Shown here: positions 18,363-25,677 of the stretch, piece by piece
Position numbering within the stretch: position 1 is the first letter of the stretch
Layout: each line of letters begins with the position of its first letter
Virus record (IMG/VR): IMGVR_UViG_3300017708_002350
Coordinates: 1 to 28,367 of that record
From: a virus
Length of the DNA stretch: 28,367 nucleotides
Direction: 5' to 3' (one strand)
Position numbers and translations under genes: made by a program
The notes under the pieces: generated by a model
What the model saw: only the letters and a program-made list of their open reading frames with translations
Databases searched by the model: none
Told to the model about the DNA's origin: nothing

Positions 18363-18654
18363 CTACTTTAAGGAATATAACGGGGGCTTTAGGACAGACA
18401 CCCCCTCATCTTCATGAGAGGCACGGGTCGCTACCCCCGTTCCAACAGACCGGACAATTTCCGACAGTCCTTTACCCTGTGAAGGGTGTTGCGTGTCTGC
18501 CCCCCTCGCATCTTGGAGGCTCAAGTTAAGCCCCCTGCAAGGGATTGAGAGCGTAGGTTGGTGGTTTCGCCACCAAAGGGGAGAGGATTGCTTTTGGCTT
18601 TTCCACATTAGCATCTTTAGAGAGGCGGTGTCCTCGTTGTTGGTTTGTTCGCTC
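18363..18654 (-). ncRNA. Candidate structured non-coding RNA A
   Basis: A GC-rich block of about 290 bases preceded by an extended promoter (18674-18698). At the TATA-to-start distance that gives an ATG elsewhere there is none here, so transcription should start near 18654. Inverted repeats are dense: AACGGGGG (18379-18386) with CCCCCGTT (18434-18441); TTGGTGG (18558-18564) with CCACCAA (18570-18576); CCCT/AGGG around 18475-18486; and CAGACAC (18395-18401) with GTGTCTG (18493-18499), the last crossing the first as a pseudoknot would. An open frame of about 84 codons exists on the minus strand but looks random (many Gly, Arg, Ser, Gln, no clear core) and is not favoured. The RNA would end near the clamp promoter. 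Function unknown. Confidence 0.5.
18368..18380 (-). promoter_or_regulatory. Probable TATA element of the clamp gene
   Basis: Minus strand TTATATTCC, roughly 33 bp before the ATG at 18341, which would leave a short leader containing GAGGG just before the ATG. It directly follows the 3' arm of the AACGGGGG stem of non-coding block A. Confidence 0.5.
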
Positions 18655-18673
18655 TGTTCTATCGTAGGGGCTA

Positions 18674-18698
18674 CCCCTATATAAGTGTATCGCCTATT
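18674..18698 (-). promoter_or_regulatory. Extended promoter (copy 5) facing block A
   Basis: Minus strand upstream box ATAGGCGATAC plus TTATATAGGGG. It matches the 25-base element at 25653-25677 at 23 positions, differing only in the two or three bases between box and TATA. No ATG lies near 25 bp downstream; it reads into the GC-rich block. It lies just before and slightly overlaps the 3' end of the 113-aa gene. Confidence 0.8.
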
Positions 18699-19035: not shown

Positions 19036-20242
19036 CATCTCCTGACTCCTTCGGCTTAACAATAAGCATTCTTTGGGGTTTGTGAATTTGAGTTCTCTTA
19101 ATTGCCTCTGCCACATCATCGGGCAAAATAGGCAAGACTCTATCAACTGCGGCATTGGATAACGATACCATAGTTCCGAATACTGTTGGCGGCACTAACC
19201 TCTGCACTTCGGCAGGGATATATGACTTTCTCGTTTGTTCTCGCCATTCAACCGACCATTTCTCCGTATCTAACTTACATTCGGACACTGGCATTTGGTA
19301 GTCAAAAATTTCAGTTTTGATGTGATTATCAATATCTTTCTTTCTCTTTTCAAGCATAGCCTTGCTTGCTTTAATGGTAGCCAATTCATCTAATAAATCG
19401 TCTGTATCTCCACCTAATGTAGGTGTTAGCATATCCCAAGCCCCGTTTTGCATCAAGTCCTGTGCTTTAGGGCATAGAGGCGCATAACTACACCATTGAC
19501 AACCCTTGCCAATTGTGGCCGGTACTTTAGTCCAGTCGCTTGAATCTATTGCTTTGATATTCTCATATTGACCATGAAGCCAGTCCTTGAAAGTTTCAAG
19601 TCTTTCATCCGACCAAACGGTTGATACTGTTCCATGCCTCATCAAATCAAAAGTGAATTTCAAAGGTCTATCCGGCCACATTTCTCTTGCTACACAAAGA
19701 TAGATTGCTGCTTGTATGCTATGGTCGGCTTCACCTTGAGTTATGTCTAATCTCTGTGTTTTGTAGTCAATCAATTCAACTGTTCCATCTGGGTGTTCAA
19801 TAATTAAATCAACAAACCCTAAAACTGGTGTTCCTGTTCTTTCAAGGAAATAAGGGGCAGTATGTTGTCCGAATTGCATCTCGACATAAAGAACCCTAAC
19901 TGGTGAACGGCCTCGACGGTCAAACCATCTCTTAAGCATCTTTTTTCCATCTTCATAAAATGCCAAATCAACTTCACGCTTGGCAGATATTTCATTGTAT
20001 AGTTTCATCAACCTACCAAATTTAGGCGGTGGTGTATTACCATCCTCGTCAGGTCGTCGCCATTCTTCAAAAGCATCGTGAACATTGTTACCCATTCGAC
20101 CCGCTTGTGAATTATCCCTATGATTTCCAATATCCTTCAATGCCTGTGCATCAGCAGTCGGAGTTTCATAATGAAAACAATACTTCAACTTACAATCTTG
20201 AGCAGTCTTTAATCGGCTCGCTGAAATGTAAGGTACTCGCAT
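19013..20242 (-). CDS. Cas4/RecB-like PD-(D/E)XK nuclease with Fe-S cysteines
   Basis: 409 residues. Motifs in order: N-terminal SASRLKTAQDC with C17; GNNVH (51-55); GFVDLI (142-147, catalytic Asp); LIDYKT (157-162, the D-x-K element); QAAIYL (177-182, the Q motif of RecB nucleases); then C248, C251 and C257 (GCQWCSYAPLC). C17 with the late triplet reproduces the four-Cys iron-sulphur arrangement of Cas4 and AddB nucleases. The C-terminal ~150 residues are an extra, partly helical region (KASKAMLEKRKKDIDNHIKT) seen in phage exonucleases of this kind. It probably acts as a single-strand or end-processing exonuclease alongside the Sak4-like ATPase directly upstream (five bases apart), forming a recombination pair. 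No CRISPR array or other cas gene is visible. Confidence 0.88.
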   Translation of the reverse strand: MRVPYISASRLKTAQDCKLKYCFHYETPTADAQALKDIGNHRDNSQAGRMGNNVHDAFEEWRRPDEDGNTPPPKFGRLMKLYNEISAKREVDLAFYEDGKKMLKRWFDRRGRSPVRVLYVEMQFGQHTAPYFLERTGTPVLGFVDLIIEHPDGTVELIDYKTQRLDITQGEADHSIQAAIYLCVAREMWPDRPLKFTFDLMRHGTVSTVWSDERLETFKDWLHGQYENIKAIDSSDWTKVPATIGKGCQWCSYAPLCPKAQDLMQNGAWDMLTPTLGGDTDDLLDELATIKASKAMLEKRKKDIDNHIKTEIFDYQMPVSECKLDTEKWSVEWREQTRKSYIPAEVQRLVPPTVFGTMVSLSNAAVDRVLPILPDDVAEAIKRTQIHKPQRMLIVKPKESGDEEKQETD

Positions 20243-21486: not shown

Positions 21487-21679
21487 GAATAGGTGGAGGC
21501 AACCTTCTGTGTATGGCAACACAAGAACCCAAATCCCCCCGAAGTTAGATGAAGGTTGCACCCCATGAAAGGGGGTAGGTGGGAGTTAGCGGTTGGATAG
21601 GTAATATGAAGAAACCGCACAAGAGCAAAAGAACCTTGCCTGATGAAGGCGAACCGTCTAACTCCCGATAACTGGCGCA
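21487..21679 (-). ncRNA. Candidate structured non-coding RNA B
   Basis: A ~190-base intergenic without a plausible gene. Stems: GCAACCTTC (21499-21507) with GAAGGTTGC (21551-21559); inside it TGTG/CACA (21508-21511, 21520-21523); CCCC/GGGG (21561-21564, 21571-21574); GGGAGTTAG (21581-21589) with CTAACTCCC (21658-21666), extendable through GGTT/AACC; and GCCT/AGGC (21638-21650). The nested, non-crossing layout reads as a folded RNA of several stem arms. No separate promoter is seen at its upstream edge, so it would be the 3' untranslated part of the SSB-like gene mRNA, or be processed from it. Its 3' end runs into the promoter of the 87-aa gene, as block C does into that of the 61-aa gene. Strand is inferred. 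Confidence 0.48.
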
Positions 21680-22834
21680 TCAATCCCAGTCATCTTCCCA
21701 TTCGTCGTCGTCGCCAGTAGTCCATTCACCGTCGGCTTTCGCCTCCGCTTTCTTTTCTTTCGGTTTTGACTCCGATTGAGTAGGTTCTTCCTTAACTTCT
21801 TCCTTAACTTCTTCCTTGACTTCCTCTTCCGAGTCGTCATCGTCGTCATCAAGGTCAATAGTTTCAACATTATCATTGTTGAAGTATGAAGAAGCATCGT
21901 CGCCCGAATCATCACCATTTGTAGGTGCTTCCGGTTGAGGCGGTGCAATTGTAATAATACCAACTGCACATTCTATTGTAGCCGATAGCCCGTATTGGTC
22001 GGACATGGAAGTTGTTATCAAAGCCAATACTTCGGAGTATTTACCAAACGCATTAGCAGTTGAAGATGAACAAAGAGCATTTAGTAGCAGGTTTTCGCCT
22101 GACTCAATCGCTTCAATAGTCATTGTTGATTCGTCTTTCAGCAACATTTTACCAAATGTATTACCTGTCTTAGATTGTTGAACACCCGAATAAGAAACGG
22201 TTGCTTCAACTAAGCGGTAGTCATTCCTGTTTCTGGAAATATCATTTTCCAATTCAGCAATTGGTGTAATGTCGTAGGTGTCACGGAGTAGTTGCACCTT
22301 GTCGCCATGACCGTCAAATTCTTCCTCAACAAATACTGTCATACCCGATAATGGGCGTAGGTCAAGAATGTCAAGGTCAAGGTTTCGACATGAAACTGCC
22401 GCACTATATGTTCCACCTTGAGTAATGTCATCAGCCAAAGCCGCATCTTCATCCCATAATCCCATCTTGAAAAGAGCAGGTGACATAGTTGAATCTCCAT
22501 CCTCGACTACAACAGAGCCAAAGATGTTAGCCATAGCACGGCCATTTCTTAGTATTCTTGATTCACAAGACCAAATATCCATGTGAGCCACATAGGACTT
22601 TTGCCTTAGCATTGATGAAAGGTCGGACATAATACAATTCGCTACAAATCTCTGTGCGCTTGCAGTTTTAATTCCTCCTAAGTCAGCAATTGAATCTTTC
22701 AATTCCTCTGCCTTTCTTTTGAACATTAGGGCGACGGGTTGTTCATCTTTGAATATCCCGTTTTGAACGCCCTTGTCAATGAAAGGTTGCAGTCTTTGTT
22801 TTACGCTTTTTGGTAGTGTTGCTTTTTTCGCCAT
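21680..22834 (-). CDS. SSB-like protein with acidic C-terminal tail
   Basis: 384 residues. The middle (EATVSYSGVQQSKTGNTFGK, then MLLKDESTMTIEAIES) looks like an OB-type strand set, preceded by a helical and mixed N-terminal region. The last ~80 residues are a low-complexity acidic tail (IDLDDDDDDSEEE, three EEVK units, ending DDDEWEDDWD), like the tails of bacterial SSB, T4 gp32 and T7 gp2.5 that recruit partner enzymes. Lying between the helicase and the recombination genes, a single-strand-binding role is the best reading, though no signature residue proves it. The TATA centre is about 38 bp from the ATG, so it has a short leader with GAAGTGAT before the ATG as a possible ribosome-binding site, unlike most operon-first genes here. 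Confidence 0.58.
   Translation of the reverse strand: MAKKATLPKSVKQRLQPFIDKGVQNGIFKDEQPVALMFKRKAEELKDSIADLGGIKTASAQRFVANCIMSDLSSMLRQKSYVAHMDIWSCESRILRNGRAMANIFGSVVVEDGDSTMSPALFKMGLWDEDAALADDITQGGTYSAAVSCRNLDLDILDLRPLSGMTVFVEEEFDGHGDKVQLLRDTYDITPIAELENDISRNRNDYRLVEATVSYSGVQQSKTGNTFGKMLLKDESTMTIEAIESGENLLLNALCSSSTANAFGKYSEVLALITTSMSDQYGLSATIECAVGIITIAPPQPEAPTNGDDSGDDASSYFNNDNVETIDLDDDDDDSEEEVKEEVKEEVKEEPTQSESKPKEKKAEAKADGEWTTGDDDEWEDDWD
21788..21826 (-). repeat. 12-bp tandem repeat encoding EEVK units
   Basis: Three near-identical 12-base copies (plus strand TTCTTCCTTAAC and close variants) inside the acidic tail of the SSB-like gene, giving three EEVK units. Copy number may vary by slippage. 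Confidence 0.7.
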
Positions 22835-22885: not shown

Positions 22886-24871
22886 TCAATCTCCATCTTC
22901 CATTTCATCAATTTGAGCATTCAGCATGGCTTCCCACAACTCATCATCTTCCGGTGCTATCTCCTTTGAAGAAGTCTTGATGTTCTCAATGACTTCCCTA
23001 CGCTTGCTTAGTTTATCTGTGGCTATGTTTTCACCACTAAACCAAGCCGAGCCGGAGAAAAAACTACCTCTGTGTCTTGAATCACCAATGACTTCATCAA
23101 TCAATGTATTTTTCCCTTGAGGTCTAAGATATGCAGGTAGGAATAATGAACGCCAAACTTCCGCTTGCTCTTTCGTCAAGCAACCGATGGACTTTAGATT
23201 CTCTTTGTCCGAACCTTTGATGGGGTGAATTATGTCAGCCCTTGTGGTCTGTTCAAGTATGTCCTCATACTCTGTTATTATATCAGGTAGGTGCTTTCTT
23301 GCGGCTTCAACAAATAATGGTGCAAGTGCATAATCATCCATCAAACCTGCTTTGGCCTTGACAATTTTGTAGGTCTTTCTCCCACCGCCTCTACCGCCTC
23401 CCCTGCGGCCAACTTCAATCAACCCTGCATCTTCCAATGTAGGCAAGTGCTTTTCCTTCAAGGCATTCTTAGTGGTGCTAAAAGCATGAATACTCAACCA
23501 TTGTAGTATGTTATCCTCCGTCAAAGAACGCCTCGCCTCTTGCATGGCATTCATTTGTTGAAATACAGTCCAAGTGCCGTCAGGAACACCGGATAGACTT
23601 GCTCTCAATACAAGGTCACATAACAATAATCCAATGACATTATCTTCAACAGAGGCGAGTAAAAACTCATCACCGTCAGTAGTTTTTTGAATCGGGCGTT
23701 GCTTTTGATGTAGCAAACAGACTGCATCTATGATTGACAATACCTTGCCTATATCTCTTTGGTGTTGAGCATTTCTTGCAGGGAAAAAGTCAGCCATTAA
23801 CGGGGCAAATATGTTCCTAACCTTATGTTCCGTTAGCCCAAGCATTGATGCTTGGAGTAATTTTAGGTCGGGGTGGATTCTAAATTGTTCCGGTCTGGCT
23901 TTTGCATGAAGTGCATTCTTCACAACAGAATCAACTTTCTCAACTGTGGTATCGGGAGTCATAATTAATTGACGGGTTATCTGTTCAGCCTCGCTTGGAT
24001 TTCTTGTAGTCAGGGTGATAAAAGACGGCCTTCCTCTAATGATGAAGTCTTTTGTTTCTATTTCGCCCGATAACTCATTCTTAATTGGAGTTTTCCAAAT
24101 TAATTCGTCATCATCACCGCTCATGATGGGTTTCATTTTCCTAATAAAAGCAAATGATTCATCTTTCTCCAAGACAACAATACACCGCCCATCAACATTC
24201 ACAATGAAATTACCTTCCTCATCTATCTCATCGTAGTCATACTTCAATGCCTCTTTAGATGCACCCGCCAAAACCATAATCATGCTCTTAGGAAAACCAT
24301 TCCTTGCCGTCAATGTCATGTATGTCTTGCCGCTTGCCGACTGGCCTATCATTTCAAGATTCAATGGATTGTCTGTTTTACAAGATAAGAAAACAAGAAA
24401 TGTCAGCATCAAGTTTGCATCATCACCAACAAACGGTGTTTCTCTGGATTCGTGCAAAATAGAATTTACCTTGTCAAGCAAATGTTTCTCGCCTAAAAAT
24501 TCCTTGATGGTATTCTGGTCAATAGCCCCGTAGGTGCTTTCTTCGCCAACAAAGGTTTCGCTTTCCACTTTGATTTTATCTTTCATCGGTGCAGGTGTAT
24601 ATGTTCCATCACGGAGAATAGTTCCGGCTTTGAGAAAATCCTCTGTAAATTGCTTTGCATCAGTTATCTCCGCACTTTTTGCCAAGCGTGCAATTGAATG
24701 TTGGGATAGGACATTTACCTTGCCCTGTGGCTTTTCATCTATCTCAACTGCAAACTCCATTCGCCCCTTAGTTGATGTAAGGAAAGTCAAAGATATGCTT
24801 ACTGCGCCCGATTCAAACTCAAATACGGTTGATGATTCGGGGGATTGTTTTACCTCAAGGTCGGTTGCCAT
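22886..24871 (-). CDS. AAA+ ATPase, probable replicative helicase
   Basis: 661 residues. Walker A GQSASGKT (176-183), then a helix and ASKEALKYDYDE, Walker B IVVLEKDES (231-239), and a sensor-1 strand SFITLTTRNP (283-292). This order, with a short insert after Walker A and the LTTRNP strand, fits the AAA+ group that includes MCM and the phage/plasmid primase-associated helicases; classical MCM motifs (GDPGTAKS, DEFDK) are not present, and no N-terminal MCM OB or zinc domain is evident. A winged-helix-like part with a Gly/Arg hinge (RRGGGRGGGRKTYKIVKAK) follows near residue 485. It probably unwinds viral DNA for the primase. The start at 24871 fits the TATA-like TTCATAATGG 25 bp upstream; a TTG three codons earlier is rejected. 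Confidence 0.75.
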   Translation of the reverse strand: MATDLEVKQSPESSTVFEFESGAVSISLTFLTSTKGRMEFAVEIDEKPQGKVNVLSQHSIARLAKSAEITDAKQFTEDFLKAGTILRDGTYTPAPMKDKIKVESETFVGEESTYGAIDQNTIKEFLGEKHLLDKVNSILHESRETPFVGDDANLMLTFLVFLSCKTDNPLNLEMIGQSASGKTYMTLTARNGFPKSMIMVLAGASKEALKYDYDEIDEEGNFIVNVDGRCIVVLEKDESFAFIRKMKPIMSGDDDELIWKTPIKNELSGEIETKDFIIRGRPSFITLTTRNPSEAEQITRQLIMTPDTTVEKVDSVVKNALHAKARPEQFRIHPDLKLLQASMLGLTEHKVRNIFAPLMADFFPARNAQHQRDIGKVLSIIDAVCLLHQKQRPIQKTTDGDEFLLASVEDNVIGLLLCDLVLRASLSGVPDGTWTVFQQMNAMQEARRSLTEDNILQWLSIHAFSTTKNALKEKHLPTLEDAGLIEVGRRGGGRGGGRKTYKIVKAKAGLMDDYALAPLFVEAARKHLPDIITEYEDILEQTTRADIIHPIKGSDKENLKSIGCLTKEQAEVWRSLFLPAYLRPQGKNTLIDEVIGDSRHRGSFFSGSAWFSGENIATDKLSKRREVIENIKTSSKEIAPEDDELWEAMLNAQIDEMEDGD

Positions 24872-25116
24872 GACTCTCAAGGTGCAACCCCACCATTATG
24901 AATTAATTGTTAAAATCACCTTCTTTAGATTATACATACACTTTGTCTATTGTATGTGTGTATTAGTATGTGTTGTAGTTTGATTAATTAGGATAACCCC
25001 CCGTAGGGGGGTTAAAGAATCAGACAATTGCAGGGTTTGAACCGTCAAGGTCTTTCAAAACTATATGCAAGAAAAACACTTGGCGACAAAAACACCGATT
25101 AATTGTAATAATTAAA
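24872..25116. other. AT-rich intergenic with hairpin, upstream of helicase
   Basis: About 245 bases without a convincing gene. It holds a perfect inverted repeat (24995-25013), several ATTAATTG-type AT-rich words (24901, 24982, 25098) and two GTATGTGT copies near 24953 and 24967. The helicase promoter is a TATA-like element at about 24892-24900. AT-rich runs next to a replicative helicase gene make this the best candidate in the window for a replication origin, but no known archaeal origin box is identified. Confidence 0.4.
24995..25013. terminator. Perfect GC hairpin, possible terminator
   Basis: The 8-base arms AACCCCCC and GGGGGGTT flank the loop GTA. It lies downstream of the 61-aa gene on the minus strand and upstream of the helicase promoter, where a terminator or insulator would be placed. 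On the minus strand it is not followed by a T-run, so intrinsic termination is not proved; replication-related structure is an alternative. Confidence 0.5.
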
Positions 25117-25302
25117 TTACCAACATGGCGAGTCATAGAACCACGCTTTGAAAACGAATACTGCTTCATCATCGGAGGCTAAATAGAAAGCCAACTCTAA
25201 CAGATTTGCCAAATCGGTATCTTCATCTTTCATAGAATTAGAATTTTCAATTATGTAATCTTCGTATTCTTCTTGCTCGTCAGTCCATGTCATGCCTGTC
25301 AT
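25117..25302 (-). CDS. Small acidic protein (61 aa)
   Basis: A strongly acidic small protein (MTGMTWTDEQEEYEDYIIEN, SMKDEDTDLANLLELAFYLA, ending WFYDSPCW). No family recognised; the charge pattern and amphipathic helix resemble small viral inhibitors or DNA mimics such as anti-restriction proteins, which is speculation. The ATG is 25 bp below an extended promoter (25321-25345) and preceded by TTAAAC. A second Met three codons in is possible. Confidence 0.68.
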   Translation of the reverse strand: MTGMTWTDEQEEYEDYIIENSNSMKDEDTDLANLLELAFYLASDDEAVFVFKAWFYDSPCW

Positions 25303-25320: not shown

Positions 25321-25345
25321 CCCCTATATAACAGTATCGCCTATT
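25321..25345 (-). promoter_or_regulatory. Extended promoter (copy 3)
   Basis: Minus strand AATAGGCGATAC with TTATATAGGGG; all 25 positions identical to copy 2 at 25653-25677. The TATA centre is 25 bp before the ATG at 25302. Confidence 0.85.
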
Positions 25346-25634
25346 GAAAAGGTGTAGGGGGGCAAATTGCCTAAGTTTTTGTCGGGTATGCCCCCCTACG
25401 GGGCGAAGGCCGTCAAGGTAGGTCAGTCTGCAAGCCACTTTGCATGTGATGCAAACAACTGCGCCATTCTCGGTCAGGCAAACTCAATTGGCGGCCAACC
25501 CTTCGTTTGCTTACCTACCCCTGCTTATTCCCTATCCCGCCCTGCTCGGCATCACCCGTTAGGTCAGTATGGCTTTCAATTCTCGCACGGCCACCATTTC
25601 TGGTGTTCTTCGGCAGGGGGTTTGACTCCCCTAC
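25346..25634 (-). ncRNA. Candidate structured non-coding RNA C
   Basis: A GC-rich block of about 290 bases between two identical promoters. The upstream copy (25653-25677) faces into it, with no ATG at the usual distance, and the minus strand has no frame longer than a few tens of codons from its first ATGs, so a non-coding transcript starting near 25633 is predicted. Stems: 11-base perfect arms GTAGGGGGGCA (25354-25364) and TGCCCCCCTAC (25389-25399) near the 3' end; TTTGCA/TGCAAA (25439-25455); GCAAAC/GTTTGC enclosing TTGG/CCAA (25478-25510); GGTAGGT (25417-25423) with ACCTACC (25513-25519); CACCA-GAAA-TGGTG on the minus strand (25592-25605), a GNRA tetraloop; and AGGGG arms at 25615-25632. 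The GNRA loop favours the minus strand. Function unknown. Confidence 0.58.
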
Positions 25635-25652
25635 AAACTACCCTATCAGTCG

Positions 25653-25677
25653 CCCCTATATAACAGTATCGCCTATT
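25653..25677 (-). promoter_or_regulatory. Extended promoter (copy 2) facing block C
   Basis: Identical over 25 bases to copy 3. Its upstream box overlaps the stop codon of the hub gene. About 25 bp downstream (near 25633) there is no start codon, only the GC-rich block. Confidence 0.85.

Follow-up and report, generated by a model that had tools for sequence, protein, structure and literature searches.

A promoter-headed block in the genome of a tailed virus with a probable archaeal host is a candidate gene for a structured non-coding RNA in an exchangeable cassette

Introduction

The locus described here raises the question of what is encoded by a 289-nt stretch (block C) that lies next to a 615-aa gene of a viral genome and is preceded by a promoter of the kind found in front of the virus's protein genes. 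The window, i.e., the whole stretch of DNA that was analyzed, is an IMG/VR record of 28,367 b. It encodes tape measure and minor tail proteins and thus stems from a tailed virus. A related record of 45 kb (G6) contains genes for terminase, portal, an HK97-type capsid, clamp loader and a family-B polymerase. The best matches of PolB, primase and an ERCC4/HhH nuclease were found in haloarchaeal and methanogen tailed viruses, with identities of about 22-30% over long stretches. Because of these matches and the archaeal-type TATA box (see below), the host is probably an archaeon. Known phage records contained neither similar DNA nor relatives of the proteins adjoining block C, and relatives of these neighbouring proteins were also not found in scans of genome collections. 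An identification of the neighbours as MCM and PCNA was dropped, because it was unsupported by Pfam or PDB sequence searches, and the label "helicase-like" for the protein encoded at 22886-24871 is based only on a Walker A motif.

Promoter, start site and coding capacity

A sequence-only reading of the window had predicted that block C has its own promoter and is encoded on the minus strand. Both predictions were tested and agreed with the following arrangement:

25655-25677, minus strand: promoter of block C, archaeal type, with the TATA box TTATATAG at about 25656-25663
25346-25634, minus strand: block C, predicted structured non-coding RNA of 289 nt, with a predicted start at 25634 and a 3' end at about 25346
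25323-25345, minus strand: promoter of the 61-aa gene, which forms the next cassette, with the same 23 nt as the block C promoter

The 23-nt promoter sequence AATAGGCGATACTGTTATATAGG occurs in exactly these two perfect copies. Three additional copies with two to three mismatches are present in the window, while none would be expected from shuffled sequences. The copy in front of block C shares nucleotides with the stop codon of the 615-aa gene that lies upstream and, as had been claimed, is identical to the promoter of a protein gene, sharing 23 of 23 nt with that of the 61-aa gene. The latter begins at 25345, directly past block C, and thus right where the RNA had been predicted to end.

For leaderless mRNAs, an ATG is expected 19-21 nt past the TATA motif. 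In the window and seven relatives, 34 distinct promoter sites were counted, and 16 of them have, exactly at this distance, an ATG with which a frame of 40 or more codons begins. Block C and its homologues have no ATG at 19-21 nt past the motif; in block C, GTTTG is found in its place, so that the proposed lack of a start codon at the expected site was verified. The greater GC-richness compared to the surroundings was also evident, with a GC content of 0.55 for block C versus 0.415 for the whole record (standard deviation of 0.035 for 250-nt windows). The record contains six islands with a GC content of at least 0.50, and three of these six are block C and two further blocks, A and B, which are described below.

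The claim that block C lacks a real frame held with one qualification. No frame is kept among the homologues, but a TTG-started frame of 98 aa does run across the plus strand, and it could be taken to indicate a plus-strand gene for a small protein or, alternatively, the remnant of a decayed or frameshifted protein gene. We regard this explanation as highly improbable. The promoter points in the direction opposite to that of the 98-aa frame, and in the closest homologue, that of G6, the frame is shared over about 18 residues only, after which indels shift it. No counterpart of the frame is kept in the block C of a further relative (G1) or in a second homologous block of G6 (block F, see below), and every minus-strand frame of block C is interrupted by stops. 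A conserved protein frame, which had been named as evidence against an RNA gene, was thus not found.

A role of block C as an antisense RNA was also considered. Exact antisense matches in the virus do not exceed 13 nt, and the longest one is to a self-complementary hairpin in an intergenic element; it was judged to be due to chance.

Block C is cargo of an exchangeable slot

Relatives were traced by a protein search with the upstream 615-aa gene. In these genomes, a slot is located between the 615-aa gene and a conserved intergenic element, and its cargo varies. The remaining parts of the slot in the window are the following:

25117-25302, minus strand: 61-aa ORF, alternative slot cargo, which is the sole cargo in G2 and is absent from G1, G3 and G6
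24872-25109, minus strand: conserved intergenic element forming the right slot edge, with the first 110 nt being 94.5-99% identical across relatives

In the window, the slot contains block C together with the 61-aa gene. Only the latter is present in G2, a different block (block D) in G3-G5, only block C in G6, and a diverged block C in G1. The left slot junction of G1 is less certain, because a run of N is located just upstream of it.

The window and G6 versions of block C are 92.8% identical, while the flanking genes have identities of only 73.2% and 83.3%. The opposite was observed for G1, in which block C is 44.7% identical to that of the window, whereas the flanks are 92.7% and 96.7% identical. 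These mismatches indicate that the cassette has been exchanged independently of its flanks. The first approximately 55 nt, some islands and the hairpin layout are kept in the block C of G1, and the remainder is at about the identity level of unrelated sequences. The terminal stem is present in G1, but its sequence differs. Block C is not essential, because G2 lacks it and G3 has another block in its place. The exchangeable nature of the cassette and the existence of a paralogue had both been missed in the sequence-only reading.

The intergenic element at 24872-25109 is more conserved than its flanking genes and contains a perfect hairpin, CCCCCC-TAC-GGGGGG, and a sequence that resembles a tRNA T-loop, GGTTCAAACCC. 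Located in front of the helicase-like gene, it may be an origin, an attachment site or a leader. Block D (L051 7691-7930, plus strand; G3 19090-19330), the cargo of G3-G5, was considered as a further candidate RNA; it has a GTTTG start and a frame of 44 codons, the ATG of which is lost in G5, and its fold is no better than those of shuffled sequences.

Hairpins and compensatory changes

The predicted elements of the block C RNA, from the 5' end to the 3' end, are the following:

25613-25634, minus strand: hairpin H1, GUAGGGG/CCCCUGC, located at the predicted 5' end and preceding CGAAG
25592-25605, minus strand: hairpin H2, CACCA-GAAA-UGGUG
25486-25500, minus strand: hairpin H3, GGUUGG-CCG-CCAAUU (GGUUGG-UAG-CCAAUU in block F)
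25416-25520, minus strand: long-range helix closing the central domain, formed by GGGUAGGU (25513-25520) with ACCUACCU (25416-25423)
25354-25399, minus strand: 3'-terminal 11-bp stem, with a conserved internal loop ACCCGA..AAACUUAGGCAA

Two of these elements had been noticed before and were recovered, namely a stem capped by GAAA on the predicted strand (25592-25605) and a perfect stem of 11 bases near the 3' end, in which 25389-25399 pairs with 25354-25364. The sequence CACCUUUUC after the 3' stem is possibly a termination signal.

The stem of H1 is only partly kept in the block C of G6. At the position of H2, G6 has a 10-bp stem of unrelated sequence, and G1 has a stem with a third unrelated sequence. 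Compared to base shuffles, the H2 stems of the window, G6 and G1 each have a p value of about 0.004. In the consensus structure of the window and G6 versions of block C, all five changed pairs stay paired, and not one pair is broken among the 76 that could be evaluated.

Block C is GC-rich, contains several inverted repeats, adjoins the highly conserved intergenic element and is swapped between genomes, all of which would also fit an origin, a packaging site or a recombination site, in which the inverted repeats would function at the level of DNA. Such an element is, however, very unlikely. On the predicted RNA strand, the H2 stem of G6 folds with -13.1 kcal/mol, compared to -2.1 kcal/mol on the opposite strand, where three G-U pairs are lost, and the 3' stem of G6 contains a change from G-C to G-U, again on the predicted strand. 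In addition, a promoter is present at the edge of block C, and the block is dispensable in the relatives that lack or have replaced it.

The folding energies themselves were modest. For block C alone, the single-sequence energy was only modestly low (z of about -1.6 to -1.9), and the alignment of the window and G6 versions yielded a z of -2.35, barely beyond the value of -2.06 for the reverse complement. For the 3' stem alone, analyzed with three sequences, the observed covariation was reached by 66 of 500 letter shuffles, which is a weak control. Because of this weak control and the modest energies, we do not claim the full structure of block C.

A paralogue of block C

A second copy of block C is located elsewhere in G6, between genes for 2147 aa and 81 aa. 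This block F (L058 6156-6471, plus strand; G6 36055-36370) was found as a GC island at 36011-36390 of G6. It has its own promoter, an ATTTG start and an H1 of new sequence that is still a hairpin and is followed by CGAAG. Its 3' stem, GCAGGGUGA/UCACCCUGC, encloses the same internal loop as that of block C. A covariance model built exclusively from the 3' domains of the window and G6 versions of block C found block F with an E value of 2e-10, with all pairs being standard. The 3' stem of block F exhibits two double-sided compensations, and 100% of the cells are paired, compared to 42-51% when the stem was slid. The compensatory changes among relatives that the sequence-only reading had called for were thus observed, as changed pairs stay paired in both the block C of G6 and block F.

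The family was defined by a GTTTG or ATTTG start after a TATA promoter, H1 with CGAAG, H2, H3, and a terminal stem with the ACCCGA..UUAGG loop. All of these features are present in block C of the window, block C of G6 and block F, while block C of G1 has the 5' part. The family therefore comprises three near-complete members, two of which are 93% identical. When viral contigs were scanned for matches by protein, by alignment, and to the promoter, the core of block A and the 3' loop, no further members of the block C family were found beyond the same few contigs. The sole extra match to the core pattern of block C, on L009, was rejected, because this contig is unrelated and shares 22 nt by chance.

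The genomic context of both blocks also bears on the possibility that the RNA of block C is not free but forms a long, structured 5' leader of the next gene, similar to an attenuator or a riboswitch. Block C is indeed located upstream of a gene on the same strand, namely the 61-aa gene in the case of the window and the helicase-like gene in the cases of G6 and G1. Nevertheless, this is quite unlikely. In the window, an identical promoter of the 61-aa gene directly follows block C. In G6 and G1, about 240 nt separate the block from the next gene, which is preceded by the conserved intergenic element with its GC-rich hairpin, and this element is the same with or without block C. The gene downstream of block F is a different one, and it also has its own promoter. 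We favour the reading that block C is a gene, very probably one whose minus-strand product is a structured non-coding RNA.

Block A as a candidate sister RNA gene

A further cassette of the window has comparable properties:

18368-18655, minus strand: block A, predicted structured RNA cassette with a promoter at 18676-18698, supported by covariation

Block A has the same type of promoter as block C and no ATG at the expected site. Homologues are present in G1 and G2, while G4 is devoid of block A at the same place. The alignment-fold z was -7.0 on the predicted strand versus -2.5 for the reverse complement. Five pairs are compensated on both sides, 99.4% of the cells are paired, and only 5 of 500 shuffles scored as high. 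No further member was found when 197 kb of related sequence were searched with a covariance model of block A, and block A has no match in Rfam. As judged from these alignments, block A is an even clearer candidate RNA gene than block C; it had been overlooked in the sequence-only reading.

Comparison with known RNA families

To our knowledge, descriptions of dedicated non-coding RNA genes in archaeal viruses are few, and a search of the literature revealed no archaeal-virus RNA gene comparable to block C or block A. A covariance scan of the window and its relatives with Rfam 15 yielded no match at the gathering threshold, and a permissive search gave only chance-level matches. The expectation that block C matches no known RNA family was therefore confirmed for Rfam. 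ARAGORN detected no tRNA or tmRNA in block C and no tRNA nearby.

The phi29 packaging RNA is a viral RNA gene without a protein product. As a dedicated, promoter-headed structured RNA in the genome of a tailed virus, block C could likewise encode a component of the virion or of packaging instead of a conflict factor, but this appears unlikely. No Rfam family, the packaging RNA model included, matches block C, which, unlike the phi29 RNA, is dispensable among close relatives, being absent from G2 and replaced in G3-G5. Furthermore, the sequence of block C differs between viruses whose neighbouring genes have remained similar.

The VA RNAs and EBERs of animal viruses are short, stable, strongly paired decoys that have their own promoters and act in trans. 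A likeness to block C would concern the way of working only; the transcription machinery is different, and no sequence relation is expected. RNA anti-CRISPRs, i.e., solitary CRISPR repeats in phages, are viral non-coding RNAs in counter-defence. The stretch ATTGAAAG of block C resembles the end of some archaeal CRISPR repeats, but it is not kept in G6, which has ACTTGAAAG instead.

Among described viral RNAs of unknown or decoy function, GOLLD and ROOL are the nearest to the predicted block C RNA, which belongs to none of the described families tested. Like the candidate RNA gene in block C, they are virus-borne structured RNA genes of unknown function (PMC12286853). However, GOLLD and ROOL are found in phages and prophages, are bacterial and are often located near tRNA islands, whereas block C belongs to a presumed archaeal virus and has no tRNA nearby. 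The sizes also differ, as the solved ROOL has 659 nt and many GOLLD RNAs exceed 800 nt (PMC12286853). Block C, with 289 nt, is below the length of about 600 nt that was taken as the minimum for these families, and their Rfam models do not match.

Exchange and possible role of the cassettes

We consider it likely that block C as a whole represents a gene of about 289 nt for a structured, trans-acting RNA that resides in an exchangeable cassette. A TATA promoter like those of the leaderless protein genes of this virus would drive its transcription. The RNA would start directly in a hairpin and would end in a terminal stem of 9-11 bp and a short U-rich tail. Among block C of the window and of G6, block F and, more distantly, block C of G1, the hairpins are the conserved property, and not the sequence or a frame.

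The exchanged unit is the promoter together with the predicted RNA, inserted as an accessory cassette ahead of the promoter of another gene. Presence and absence of such units were observed at three places, i.e., the C slot (window versus G2), the A slot (G2 versus G4) and the F slot (G6 versus G7). Because the promoter motif is repeated throughout the genome, we propose that cassettes would be gained, lost or replaced through homologous recombination, with either a second promoter copy or the conserved intergenic element serving as the partner of a promoter.

As to the role, the RNA gene is dispensable, and its hairpins are kept while the sequence turns over between near-identical viruses. 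We tentatively infer from this that the block C RNA might be a fast-turning-over decoy or inhibitor that acts in trans in a virus-host or virus-virus conflict. It would be a more speculative and rather doubtful generalization that tailed viruses of uncultured archaea carry modular, promoter-headed RNA cassettes (C/F, A and perhaps others), which are shuffled from promoter to promoter and serve RNA-only counter-defence or competition. Blocks C and A would represent two RNA families that are unrelated to each other and occur within one virus group, with swappable cassettes, a common type of promoter and hairpins that outlast the sequence. If they are expressed, the concept of exchangeable accessory genes of archaeal viruses would extend from proteins to RNAs, and both RNAs would offer a concrete, small target for asking what they do during infection.

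Additional blocks

Block B (21488-21682, minus strand) is a GC-rich non-coding stretch past a 384-aa gene and is kept in G1, G2 and G4. It has an alignment-fold z of -3.9, compared to -1.4 for the reverse complement, and is possibly a structured 3' UTR or a processed RNA. Block E of G3, G5 and G6 is not claimed as an RNA gene, as the opposite strand folds better. It is a conserved leader with a TTTG start in front of a 73-aa gene (L060 2632-2790, plus strand), and it ends in CTCTCATGAGTATGAGAG; a similar hairpin is present in block A.
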